This document shows positions 939 through 63,198 of a stretch of DNA of 64,000 bases, in pieces. The DNA is from Corynebacterium amycolatum (GTDB lineage: Bacteria; Actinomycetota; Actinomycetes; Mycobacteriales; Mycobacteriaceae), in NCBI RefSeq assembly GCF_016889425.1, contig NZ_CP069513.1, forward strand, positions 496,001-560,000, read 5' to 3'. The first letter of the stretch is position 1; each line of letters opens with the position of its first letter. The position numbers and the translations under genes were made by a program. The notes below the pieces were generated by a model. It was given only the letters and a program-made list of their open reading frames with translations. It did not search any database and was not told the DNA's origin.

Positions 939-1285
939 TACTTAGCCAGCCGAGCGATTGCCGCCGAGGCCTCCTCCAGCTTGGCATCCAACTCCTCCTG
1001 GCCACCCTCAGCCGCATGCACCACACAGTGATGAAGATGAGCATCCAGAAGAGTCAACGCCAACGACTTCAACGCCGAATTCACCGCCGAAATCTGGGTC
1101 AAAACATCGATACAGTACTCTTCGTTCTCAATCATCCGACCAATGCCACGAACCTGCCCCTCAATGCGACGAATACGGGACTCATAACGCCGCTTCTCCG
1201 AAAGATAACCGGGATCAGTGGTGTCATGGCAGCAAGAACCGTCGTCAAGCGAATGCGATTGAGACGAACAACAAGACTCACTCAT
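938..1285 (-). CDS. csoR: CsoR-family copper-sensing repressor
   Basis: A 115-residue protein of the CsoR/RcnR (DUF156) family. The helical core begins near residue 30 (RIRRIEGQVRGIGRMIE). The Cu(I) triad is visible as Cys58, His83 and Cys87, inside YCIDVLTQISAV and LLDAHLHHCV. An N-terminal Cys/His-rich extension (CCSSQSH and CCHD, residues 5-20) is longer than in typical members and could bind metal. The gene is the last of copZ-copA-csoR. Its AAGGAG ribosome site lies in the last codons of copA, three bases upstream, so translation is probably coupled. It should repress the operon through the operator near 3731-3751. Metal specificity is inferred from the triad and neighbours. Confidence 0.92.
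   Translation of the reverse strand: MSESCCSSQSHSLDDGSCCHDTTDPGYLSEKRRYESRIRRIEGQVRGIGRMIENEEYCIDVLTQISAVNSALKSLALTLLDAHLHHCVVHAAEGGQEELDAKLEEASAAIARLAK
1240..1250 (+). repeat. CGTCGTHAAGC repeat family (representative copy; 30 listed)
   Basis: An 11-base word, CGTCGTHAAGC with H mostly C, sometimes A, rarely T, recurs through the window. Plus-strand copies start at 1240, 4302, 5000, 6856, 8724, 10417, 13468, 15075, 23783, 32426, 37717, 40737, 46334, 50194 and 63087. Minus-strand copies start at 5032, 7295, 8582, 12447, 15711, 19177, 23024, 27737, 31485, 35504, 39499, 42083, 45122, 55458 and 62265. The best copies extend to CGTCGTCAAGCGAA. About 24 lie inside genes, where they often encode SLDDG or VVKR. 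With equal base frequencies about 0.1 copy is expected in 64 kb. The list was made by eye and may be incomplete. Confidence 0.8.
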
Positions 1286-1288
1286 GAA

Positions 1289-3487
1289 TTACTCCTTTTT
1301 AACTTTCTGTTTGACTCGGAGAAAACCGCGCAGACGCAGACTGTTGCCGACCACAAAAACCGACGAAAACGCCATTGCAGCGCCAGCCAACATCGGATTC
1401 AACAACCCCAGTGCGGCGACAGGAATTGCCAAAACGTTGTAGAAAAACGCCCAAAAAAGATTTGACCGAATCGTGCGGAGCGTCCGGCGAGACAACCGCA
1501 GCGCATCCGCAGCCGCCAACAAATCACCACGCACCAGCGTGATATCCGCGGCCTCCATCGCCACATCGGTGCCCGTGCCCATCGCCATGCCCAAATCCGC
1601 CTGCGCAAGAGCCGCAGCATCATTAATGCCATCGCCGACCATCGCCACGGACGCGCCGCTGGCCTGCAACTTCTCAATCGTCGCGACCTTATCCTCCGGC
1701 ATCACTCCCGAAATCACGTCCTCGCGAGCAATACCGACCTTATCCGCAACGCGAAACGCAGGGCCGGCGGCGTCGCCGGTCAGCAGAATCGGCCGCACTC
1801 CCCACTCCCGGAATTTCGCGACCGCAGCCGCCGACGTCGGCTTCACCGAATCCGACACCTCCAACGTGCCCAGGAGCTCGCCGTCGCGGCGCACCGCAAC
1901 CACCGTCCCCCCACTCCCGGAATTTTCCCCGGAGCGGCCGACCTCGATGCGGTGGCCGTCTACGGTGCCCTCAACCCCCACTCCCGGAATATCCCGGAAA
2001 TCAGAAACCGGGAGTAGGGAATCCGGATCCGCCGCACGCACAATTGCCTGCGCAATCGGGTGGTGCGACGCCGCTTCCACCGAAGCGGCAAGCGGCACCA
2101 GATTTTCGGGAGTGGGAGGAACCTCCGTCAACTCCATCACACCCGTAGTCACCGTGCCGGTCTTATCCAGCACAACCGTGTCGACCTTCCGCGCCGACTC
2201 CAGCACCTCCGGGCCGCGCAGCAACACACCCGCCTTGGCACCTTCACTCGTGCCGACCAGGAGCGCTGTGGGCGTCGCTAAGCCAAGCGCACACGGGCAC
2301 GCGATAATGAGTACGGCGACCGCAGCCGTGACCGCCTCACTCGCGCCGTGCCCCGTGAGCAACCACGCACCGAGCGTGACCACGGCGATCGCGATGACGG
2401 CGGGCACGAACACTCCCGAAACCCGGTCCGCTAGCCGCTGCACCGGTGCCTTGCCCGTCTGCGCCGCCTCGACCATCGCTGCCATCTGCGCCAACTGCGT
2501 CTCCGAGCCCACGCGCGTCGCCCGCACGAGCAACCGCCCAGACGTATTAATCGTCGCCCCTGTCACCTCATCGCCAGGGCCGACCTCGACAGGCATCGGC
2601 TCTCCGGTCAGCATCGACGCATCCACCGCCGACGCACCCTCCACGACAACGCCATCCGTCGCGATCTTCTCACCAGGCCTAACGACGAACACCACTCCCG
2701 GGCGGAGCTGTTCCACGGGCAGCCGCTTCTCCACTCCCGAACTTTCGAGAACGGAGACCTCCTTGGCGCCGAGCTTCATCAACTCCCGGAGCGCCTGACC
2801 AGCATTGCGCTTAGAACGCTTCTCGAAATAACGACCGAGCAGCACAAACATGATGATGCCGGCCATCGCCTCGAGGTAGATGTTCATATCAGCATCGCCG
2901 GGAGTGACCGTTAAGTGGAACTCGTGCTTAAGCCCCGGCAGCCCGGCGCGCCCGAAGAACAACGCCCAGACGCTCCAGAGGAACGAGGCGGTCGTACCCA
3001 TGGTGATCAGCGTGTCCATGGTGACTTCACCATGACGCAGGTTCTTCAGCGTCGCGCGATGGAACGGCCAGCCGGCCCACACAAAGACCGGCGCCGAGAG
3101 CGTGAGGCACAGCCACTGCCAATTAGTGAATTGGAGGGCAGGAATCATCGACATCGCGATGACGGGAACCGTGAGGATGACAGCGCCGACGACGCGATTG
3201 CGCAGGTCCTGCAGCTCCCGGTCTTTTTCTTCGGGAGCAGCTTCCGGTTCCTGTTCGGACTCCTCCTGCGGAAGCTCAGCAGTGTAACCTGCCGCCACGA
3301 TCGTGTCGATGAGTTGCTGCGGGTTGATGTCCGCCGGCGCCTCCACATGCGCCTTCTCGGTCGCATAGTTCACGCTCGCGTTAACTCCATCAAGTTTGTT
3401 CAGCTTGCGTTGAATACGGTTTGCGCACGACGCACACGTCATCCCGCCGACGGGGATATCAAGAGTGAGAAGTTGCTGCTCGGACAT
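1289..3487 (-). CDS. copA: Copper-exporting P1B-type ATPase
   Basis: A 732-residue Cu(I) efflux ATPase. An N-terminal heavy-metal domain carries GMTCASC (residues 15-21). The rest is a standard P-type core: TGEP phosphatase loop near 294, transmembrane CPC (IIACPCALG) near 398, phosphorylated Asp in DKTGT near 440, the SHHP nucleotide-domain motif near 472, and GDGINDA near 615. The gene lies between copZ (25 bp upstream) and csoR (3 bp downstream), so the three form one operon. It should pump Cu(I) out of the cytoplasm after handover from CopZ. Several in-frame stretches (NSGSGG, IPGVG) are encoded by CCGGGAGT repeats and fall in variable loops. Confidence 0.96.
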   Translation of the reverse strand: MSEQQLLTLDIPVGGMTCASCANRIQRKLNKLDGVNASVNYATEKAHVEAPADINPQQLIDTIVAAGYTAELPQEESEQEPEAAPEEKDRELQDLRNRVVGAVILTVPVIAMSMIPALQFTNWQWLCLTLSAPVFVWAGWPFHRATLKNLRHGEVTMDTLITMGTTASFLWSVWALFFGRAGLPGLKHEFHLTVTPGDADMNIYLEAMAGIIMFVLLGRYFEKRSKRNAGQALRELMKLGAKEVSVLESSGVEKRLPVEQLRPGVVFVVRPGEKIATDGVVVEGASAVDASMLTGEPMPVEVGPGDEVTGATINTSGRLLVRATRVGSETQLAQMAAMVEAAQTGKAPVQRLADRVSGVFVPAVIAIAVVTLGAWLLTGHGASEAVTAAVAVLIIACPCALGLATPTALLVGTSEGAKAGVLLRGPEVLESARKVDTVVLDKTGTVTTGVMELTEVPPTPENLVPLAASVEAASHHPIAQAIVRAADPDSLLPVSDFRDIPGVGVEGTVDGHRIEVGRSGENSGSGGTVVAVRRDGELLGTLEVSDSVKPTSAAAVAKFREWGVRPILLTGDAAGPAFRVADKVGIAREDVISGVMPEDKVATIEKLQASGASVAMVGDGINDAAALAQADLGMAMGTGTDVAMEAADITLVRGDLLAAADALRLSRRTLRTIRSNLFWAFFYNVLAIPVAALGLLNPMLAGAAMAFSSVFVVGNSLRLRGFLRVKQKVKKE

Positions 3488-62733: not shown

Positions 62734-62778
62734 GACTAAGGTCTTCTTTCTTGATAAAAGAGGCTGTGGTGATGATGC

Positions 62779-63198
62779 CTACAGGTCCTCGGGACCAAAG
62801 GAGTAAGGGAGAATTTTTTCGAAGTCAATGCTGGACGGAGCGCCCAAACCACCATTTTCCGGGCGCTCGGACTCCACTATGACGCGCTTGCACCCAAATT
62901 CGTGCAGGACTTGCCGACAGGCGCCACAGGGGTGGCACGGTGCCGCCTTTCGCCCGACGATGGCGCAGGCCGCAATCTTATGGTTGCCGCCGTGCTCCGC
63001 GACCATGCGAAATACGGCTGTGCGCTCTGCGCAGTTGGTCAACCCATAGGATGCATTTTCTACGTTGCAGCCTGTGACCACCGTGCCGTCGTCAAGCAGA
63101 AGTGCGGCACCGACCGGAAAACCTGAATAGGGGACGTACGAGTTTTCCGTGGCTGCGTAGGCCTTAGCCAGCAGTTCTTCGTCTGAGATGTGGGACAT
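62779..63198 (-). CDS. cdd: Cytidine deaminase
   Basis: A 139-residue tetrameric-type cytidine deaminase. Zinc and catalytic motifs are NCAERTAVF (Cys-Ala-Glu) and PCHPCGACRQVLHEF; VGAALLLDDGTVVTGCNVENASYG binds nucleoside. It deaminates cytidine and deoxycytidine. Divergent from deoA, in operon with nupC. Confidence 0.95.
   Translation of the reverse strand: MSHISDEELLAKAYAATENSYVPYSGFPVGAALLLDDGTVVTGCNVENASYGLTNCAERTAVFRMVAEHGGNHKIAACAIVGRKAAPCHPCGACRQVLHEFGCKRVIVESERPENGGLGAPSSIDFEKILPYSFGPEDL

Follow-up and report, generated by a model that had tools for sequence, protein, structure and literature searches.

To our knowledge, uptake words of proven function are confined to the Neisseriaceae and the Pasteurellaceae, and Corynebacterium is not regarded as a competent genus. 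The DNA uptake sequences (DUS) of the Neisseriaceae, whose reader is the minor pilin ComP, are short, non-palindromic words that occur in many copies on both strands, within and between genes. They share a conserved CTG core and form dialects that follow phylogeny, with some clades one transition apart (PMC3630211). The uptake signal sequences (USS) of the Pasteurellaceae are described as about 1500 copies with even spacing and no orientation bias round the chromosome (PMC1939737). We analyzed a 64,000-nucleotide stretch of Corynebacterium amycolatum DNA (contig NZ_CP069513.1), referred to as the window, which spans positions 496001-560000 of a complete genome of 2,474,943 bases (G000). The initial annotation of the window had reported an 11-base word, CGTCGTHAAGC, spread evenly on both strands like an uptake signal. 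The word is real, genus-wide, maintained and present in dialects; with a probability of roughly 0.65, CGTCG-NN-AAGC is a DNA uptake-type (self-DNA) signal of Corynebacterium for natural transformation, and CATCG-NN-AAGC would be its second dialect. Neither word, nor any Corynebacterium uptake word, was found reported in open-access articles, searched mostly by titles and abstract openings.

An exact recount of CGTCGTHAAGC in the window agrees with the annotated 30 copies, 15 per strand, the first at 1240 and the last ending at 63097. The expectation from 100 dinucleotide shuffles was 0.17 (largest value 2), and the strong excess over the roughly 0.1 copies originally expected is upheld. The word is not limited to the window, since the genome contains 296 copies on the + strand and 287 on the - strand, compared with 4 and 5 for the reversed-word control. 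The word was refined using a 464-kb sample composed of the window and 20 evenly spaced 20-kb stretches of G000. The top over-represented 9- to 11-base words of this sample belong to one bipartite motif, CGTCGNNAAGC, whose nine fixed bases are split by a free 2-bp spacer (CGTCG-NN-AAGC). All 16 spacers lie above expectation, led by GC (65), TC (64) and TA (42), and CGTCGGCAAGC is as frequent as CGTCGTCAAGC (65 versus 64). From the earlier description of ten fixed bases, the variable middle was retained, but T is not fixed at position 6 and the spacer is 2 bp long. Because only CGTCG and AAGC are fixed, the window contains 60 copies of CGTCGNNAAGC (30+/30-). The whole genome carries 802 copies on the + strand and 737 on the - strand, in line with the even strand use first described; these 1539 copies per 2.47 Mb correspond to about one per 1.6 kb, compared with 30 and 38 (68) for the reversed word. 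At eight of the nine fixed positions, variants with one changed base were near background in the 464-kb sample (0-8 copies each, spacer set K-N). Position 9 is looser in the same set: A to C was found 45 times against 4.9 expected, A to G 14 times against 4.9, and A to T 9 times against 3.9. The sample also contains 8 copies of AGTCAGTAACT (0.04 expected), which is probably a small repeat family. The comEC region of G000 is 93.4% identical to that of Corynebacterium amycolatum SK46 over 14.4 kb, and the two are neighbours on the tree.

The contribution of coding sequence was evaluated with 360 genes (366 kb) from a simple purpose-made gene finder and 200 within-gene shuffles of synonymous codons. 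These genes contain 228 sites compared with a shuffle mean of 18.6 (standard deviation 3.9, maximum 32), a 12-fold enrichment. The codon-preserving shuffles rule out a codon or dipeptide origin, and the count is far from the codon-adjusted expectation that the initial annotation had named as the value to compare. Enrichment was observed in all six frames and both orientations, and the encoded peptides varied. Another 64 sites lie in the other 97.7 kb, a remainder that takes in genes the finder overlooked, comEC itself among them, and 2 more lie on gene edges; the description of copies in genes of every kind and between genes is thus borne out. Conservation was measured in a relative (G093) with 94.15% identity over 184 kb aligned, where 129 of 134 G000 sites are intact. 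Divergence was 0.5% at the nine core bases, 1.9% in the spacer and 5.1% in the flanks, while 300 shuffled control words (865 instances) showed 4.1% divergence and 69.6% intact copies. As core divergence is far below that of flanks and controls, maintenance of the sites takes place at the DNA level.

The genus was surveyed using 161 Corynebacterium genomes, an even selection out of a larger collection. The relatives, in which the initial annotation had suggested counting, do carry the word: CGTCGNNAAGC, or dialect 1, is present at 280-1891 copies in 109 of the 161 genomes and at 8-134 copies in the other 52. A second word, CATCGNNAAGC (CATCG-NN-AAGC, dialect 2), is one letter off dialect 1 and reaches 625-1337 copies in ten genomes (G006, G077, G118, G128, G134, G161, G166, G167, G174 and G176). 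There are 213 copies in G097, 159 in G108 (1.9 Mb, few dialect-1 words), and 12-159 in the other 149 of the 161. G166 carries both words (352 of dialect 1 and 1337 of dialect 2), and 41 of the 161 genomes carry neither. These counts are genome-wide; 40-kb samples miss sparse words, as G118 looked empty in such a sample and yet holds 736 dialect-2 words. A mild excess of dialect 2 (118-159 copies) was seen in nine dialect-1 genomes (G004, G005, G011, G036, G075, G076, G098, G117 and G132), possibly as remnants or tolerance. Nothing comparable is present in 199 genomes from other genera of the order, where CRTCGNNAAGC does not exceed about 2.1 times its reversed control, compared with 17 times in G000.

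Species names were attached to the dialects through named comEC loci: stretches of at most about 21 kb surrounding the gene were taken from 80 public contigs, of which 76 have Corynebacterium in their title. Dialect 1 was found in C. amycolatum, C. tuberculostearicum, C. striatum, C. aurimucosum, C. minutissimum, C. propinquum, C. pseudodiphtheriticum, C. glaucum, C. riegelii and others; the KPL1814/macginleyi group, C. phoceense and C. sp. J010B-136 carry dialect 2. Little or no word was found in C. phocae, C. uropygiale, C. pygosceleis, C. meridianum, C. marambiense and C. parakroppenstedtii; single labels of this last kind are soft because each rests on about 20 kb. On a LepA+ComEC+HolA tree (90 rows, long branches flagged), the dialect-2 label requires at least 5 changes, 4 of them forced by well-supported branches, and the three labels together require 13 changes compared with a shuffled mean of 31.4.

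The relation between the dialects was examined in sister clades of the tree, C. tuberculostearicum (G005, dialect 1) and the clade of G006 (dialect 2), of which 106 kb could be aligned at 78.2%. Of the 37 dialect-1 sites in G005, 21 are matched in G006 by an exact dialect-2 site and 2 by an unchanged site, which leaves 14 others. At the 21 exchanged sites, the second core base alone differs and the other eight core bases match. In the reverse view, 49 dialect-2 sites face 21 dialect-1 sites, 2 dialect-2 sites and 26 others. Among 546 instances of 400 control words, 18.7% were wholly conserved and 3.9% differed by nothing but one G-to-A change, counted at any G. The parsimonious reading of this site-by-site exchange is that a trans-acting reader changed its preference and that replacement at existing sites followed, which strongly suggests that a protein reader exists.

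What such a reader does is a separate matter, and we have moderate confidence that the underlying process is DNA uptake. In this scheme, a DNA-binding protein at the cell surface or membrane, with a Tad/Flp pilus subunit and ComEA as candidates, would bind the word in double-stranded DNA during natural transformation. Fragments carrying the word would be pulled in via ComEC and then recombined. Favoured uptake of such fragments would let the word accumulate genome-wide and would replace decayed copies, and a one-base shift in reader preference would rewrite the genome at existing sites. Like the DUS, the word is short and non-palindromic, occurs in very many copies on both strands, within and between genes, has dialects that follow phylogeny and is scarce on the examined plasmids. 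In contrast to the DUS, it has no fixed CTG in CGTCGNNAAGC, is bipartite with a free 2-bp spacer and belongs to the Actinomycetota; the two words are unrelated, no ComP counterpart was identified, and clear use in inverted terminator pairs is lacking. With the USS it has in common about 1500 copies, the lack of orientation bias and even spacing, and it differs in its core and in the same-strand avoidance of the C. amycolatum clade described below.

The route would probably run through ComEA/ComEC and Tad/Flp pili, which are near-universal in the genus. ComEC was detected in 161 of 161 Corynebacterium genomes, ComEA in 89 of 92 loci, a TadB/C-type T2SSF protein in 153 of 161 genomes and a Flp-type pilin (DUF4244) in 158 of 161. 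The Tad loci of G006 and G172 encode, by our own naming, a CpaE-like protein, TadA, TadB, Flp, TadE and a TadG-like protein. Transformation of Micrococcus luteus, another actinobacterium, requires Flp pili, and its genome has ComEA and ComEC homologues (PMC6370729).

Foreign DNA was represented by a small set whose host dialect is partly known: seven plasmid records (167 kb) from two homology searches, with pTP10 covered to base 50,000 of 51,409, and one phage. The word is mostly scarce on the few plasmids examined, which together hold 10 dialect-1 and 6 dialect-2 sites. Plasmid pTP10 of C. striatum holds 7 of the 10 dialect-1 sites, five of them within a chromosome-type block at 8.6-13.6 kb with genes for a quinone-dependent dihydroorotate dehydrogenase, undecaprenyl-diphosphate phosphatase and mshC. 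Of the dialect-2 sites, a plasmid of C. tuberculostearicum carries 2, and the other 4 are on pUMB2355A, which has a duplicated block. In phage BFK20 (43 kb), a single dialect-1 site was counted. Judged by annotation, the genes at about 2.5-17 kb of pUMB2355A, including mobF and an aminoglycoside phosphotransferase, recur at 18-33 kb, each block measuring about 15 kb. The C. tuberculostearicum plasmid carries ABC transporter genes with TOMM-leader-binding, YcaO and SagB-like genes at 21121-25863, probably an azole-peptide cluster carried by the plasmid of a skin commensal.

Orientation and spacing were analyzed in the G000 sample. According to the GC skew of the sampled stretches, the origin lies near 0.7 Mb, with the terminus at around 1.85 Mb, and in the sampled half where the + strand leads, 51 sites lie on + and 52 on -, so that no replication-strand bias was detected round the origin and terminus, as the strand balance of the window had suggested to the first annotator. 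The spacing is more even than random (coefficient of variation of the gaps 0.78 versus 0.99), and the annotated even spread holds. Same-strand pairs at most 1.5 kb apart numbered 68 compared with about 147 expected, while opposite-strand pairs were as expected (158). Neighbouring sites alternate strand 196:93 in G000 and likewise 161:86 in G093; the alternating share in G000 (0.68) lies above all 120 control 7-mers of similar count (0.48, maximum 0.66). Elsewhere, the ratio of alternating to same-strand neighbours was 30:45 in G016, 118:96 in nine other dialect-1 genomes, 106:86 in six dialect-2 genomes and 255:236 in 52 named comEC loci. Same-strand versus opposite-strand pairs closer than 500 bp numbered 22 versus 49 in the named loci and 9 versus 24 in the nine dialect-1 genomes, whereas G016 (10 versus 7) and the dialect-2 genomes (19 versus 12) showed no same-strand deficit. 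Alternating orientation was rejected as a general rule because G016 goes the opposite way, and since the effect is lacking as a rule in other species, strong strand exclusion is shown only for the C. amycolatum clade.

Several of these results weigh against uptake as the function of the word. The same-strand avoidance in the C. amycolatum clade is not predicted by plain, orientation-blind uptake. All 41 word-less genomes have ComEC and the pilin, so the machinery is permissive rather than diagnostic and does not predict the word. The initial annotation had pointed to comEA, comEC and pilus genes; they are present, but word-less species have ComEC and pilin too, and the presence of ComEC, TadB/C, pilin or AdnAB was rejected as an explanation of word carriage, ComEC being universal and pilin nearly so. 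Conversely, neither T2SSF nor pilin was detected in G095 (word-rich, estimated complete), G142 (word-rich, 53% complete) and G097 (213 dialect-2 words). Weak or missing T2SSF matches (E above 1e-8) were seen in 29 of the 41 word-less and 16 of the 120 word-bearing genomes, a difference that ignores kinship and includes several weak word-rich genomes and was not used as evidence. No clean dialect-specific residue was found in ComEA or ComEC: weakly dialect-specific columns numbered 5 in ComEA and 10 in ComEC, compared with 24 in the control HolA and 0 in the control LepA, and as HolA exceeds both, clade history can explain their columns. Three Tad pilins of ten genomes, compared by eye, likewise showed nothing evident.

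Inverted pairs point the same way. All 7 adjacent pairs closer than 60 bp in the G000 sample are inverted, compared with 10.9 expected in any orientation and about 5.4 expected inverted. Close inverted pairs are thus barely above expectation, and terminators were rejected as the main use of the word; the terminator-like pair annotated at 5000-5042 is not an example of a clear general feature. Inverted pairs acting as terminators are frequent among the USS and are not obligatory. The uptake idea of the initial annotation therefore loses its terminator component and keeps the support of copy number, presence on both strands without replication-strand bias in the sample, location in genes and between them, scarcity on plasmids and dialects.

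The best surviving alternative is a Chi-like signal, which an end-processing helicase-nuclease (AdnAB) would read one way and which would switch it from degradation to recombination, so that each strand needs its own spaced copies. The shortage of close same-strand pairs in G000, with opposite-strand pairs at expectation, and the alternation in G000 and G093 fit this description. Neighbouring pairs of long PF12705 genes, which we take to be AdnA and AdnB, were found in 18 of 18 genomes tested, and this explanation therefore also has its enzyme. However, four word-less genomes among the 18 have the pair as well, and the strand effect is absent in G016 and weak elsewhere. The Chi sites of RecBCD and AddAB are similar to the word in over-representation and, for the C. 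amycolatum clade, in orientation-aware spacing, but Chi is biased to the leading strand in E. coli and others, whereas the word shows no such bias. In addition, its nine fixed bases exceed the length of known Chi sites, and it is typical of uptake words to have dialects within a genus and to be exchanged at existing sites. We know of no recognition of such a word by AdnAB, and consider a Chi-like role unlikely on balance.

A related possibility, which we regard as rather doubtful, is that the word belongs to an orientation-aware self-DNA recognition system of an undescribed kind, each copy serving its own strand over about 1.5 kb, the reader having changed its preference within the genus and every such switch having rewritten the genome site by site; beyond tagging fragments for uptake, such a word might couple directional uptake with recombination.

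A binding site of a chromosome-organising, segregation or methylation system is improbable. Genome-wide presence and the even spacing noted above would suit such a site, and Karlin is reported to have proposed roles of this type for uptake words on like grounds (PMC1939737). However, the word is non-palindromic, is not concentrated on the leading strand, is scarce on the examined plasmids and is absent in 41 of 161 congeners that must organise their chromosomes too. KOPS and other architecture-imparting words are likewise short and genome-wide, but they are strand-polar, which the Corynebacterium word is not. Finally, a functionless by-product of codon, dipeptide or mutational bias is refuted for practical purposes: the commonest frame does encode Leu-x-Asp, the word then being on the opposite strand (133 of 228 sites), but every frame is raised and the total is 12-fold above codon-preserving shuffles, neighbours with a single mismatch are near background at eight of nine positions, divergence is 8-fold below that of control words, dialects are exchanged at existing sites, and the reversed word occurs 68 times against 1539.

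Other words were sought in genomes lacking both dialects. In G010 (140 kb; L041, L042, L236-L240), GGTGGCGTCG was found 26 times compared with 1.5 expected, and the 9-mer GTGGCGTCG is strand-balanced (19/17) and is followed by about ten A-rich positions. GGTGGCGTCG has CGTCG in common with dialect 1, and its arrangement, GC-rich in the core and A-rich on the 3' side, resembles that of the USS. Over whole genomes, the 10-mer GGTGGCGTCG was counted 294 times in G010, 381 in G015, 316 in G105 and 258 in G158 (reversed controls 33-61); some dialect-1 genomes, such as G127 (288), have a raised count as well. This third word is a lead, not a result. In G171, where GGTGGCGTCG looks replication-polar, all 24 matches listed fall within the first 0.52 Mb of contig 1 (21002-515468) and on the + strand, although the totals are 72/74. 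No comparable word was found in 131-171 kb each of the word-less G014, G030 and G175; G014 contains TCGTCNNNNTCGTC (12 versus 0.2 expected) and G030 contains GTCGNCGAG (78 versus 21.5 expected). A TCCGCNNNNCGGAC-type pattern in G074 (L063-L064; 17 versus 0.2 expected in 40 kb) is probably a local repeat.

All 60 sites of the window match CGTCGNNAAGC, and those with the spacers of CGTCGTCAAGC, CGTCGTAAAGC and CGTCGTTAAGC also match CGTCGTHAAGC. CGTCGTCAAGC is located on the + strand at 1240..1250, 4302..4312, 6856..6866, 8724..8734, 10417..10427, 15075..15085, 32426..32436, 46334..46344, 50194..50204 and 63087..63097, and on the - strand at 5032..5042 (right arm of the inverted pair), 8582..8592, 23024..23034, 31485..31495, 39499..39509, 42083..42093, 45122..45132 and 55458..55468. 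CGTCGTAAAGC is present on + at 5000..5010 (left arm of the pair), 13468..13478, 23783..23793, 37717..37727 and 40737..40747, and on - at 7295..7305, 15711..15721, 19177..19187 and 27737..27747; CGTCGTTAAGC lies on - at 12447..12457, 35504..35514 and 62265..62275.

The remaining sites match CGTCGNNAAGC only. CGTCGGCAAGC occupies 21119..21129, 27509..27519 and 58010..58020 on + and 6112..6122, 34860..34870 and 50591..50601 on -. CGTCGGAAAGC is found at 21924..21934, 36214..36224 and 38905..38915 on + and at 24455..24465 and 46779..46789 on -, and CGTCGAGAAGC at 18304..18314 and 54665..54675 on + and at 38273..38283 and 59557..59567 on -. Both sites of CGTCGATAAGC are on the - strand, at 4293..4303, which overlaps the + site at 4302..4312, and at 13492..13502. 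One site on each strand was found for CGTCGTGAAGC (+ 42814..42824, - 897..907), CGTCGCTAAGC (+ 2273..2283, - 28364..28374), CGTCGGGAAGC (+ 14865..14875, - 21391..21401), CGTCGAAAAGC (+ 16600..16610, - 22667..22677) and CGTCGACAAGC (+ 55803..55813, - 38453..38463). CGTCGCGAAGC (5715..5725) and CGTCGGTAAGC (43334..43344) are single sites on +, and CGTCGCCAAGC (48657..48667) is a single site on -.

If the uptake interpretation is true, a Gram-positive phylum would have a genus-wide counterpart of the known uptake words, and many Corynebacterium of skin, nose and dairy may exchange genes by self-filtered transformation. The word would offer a ready test for competence in Corynebacterium, and sister clades with swapped dialects would show a recognition code and its reader evolving together.

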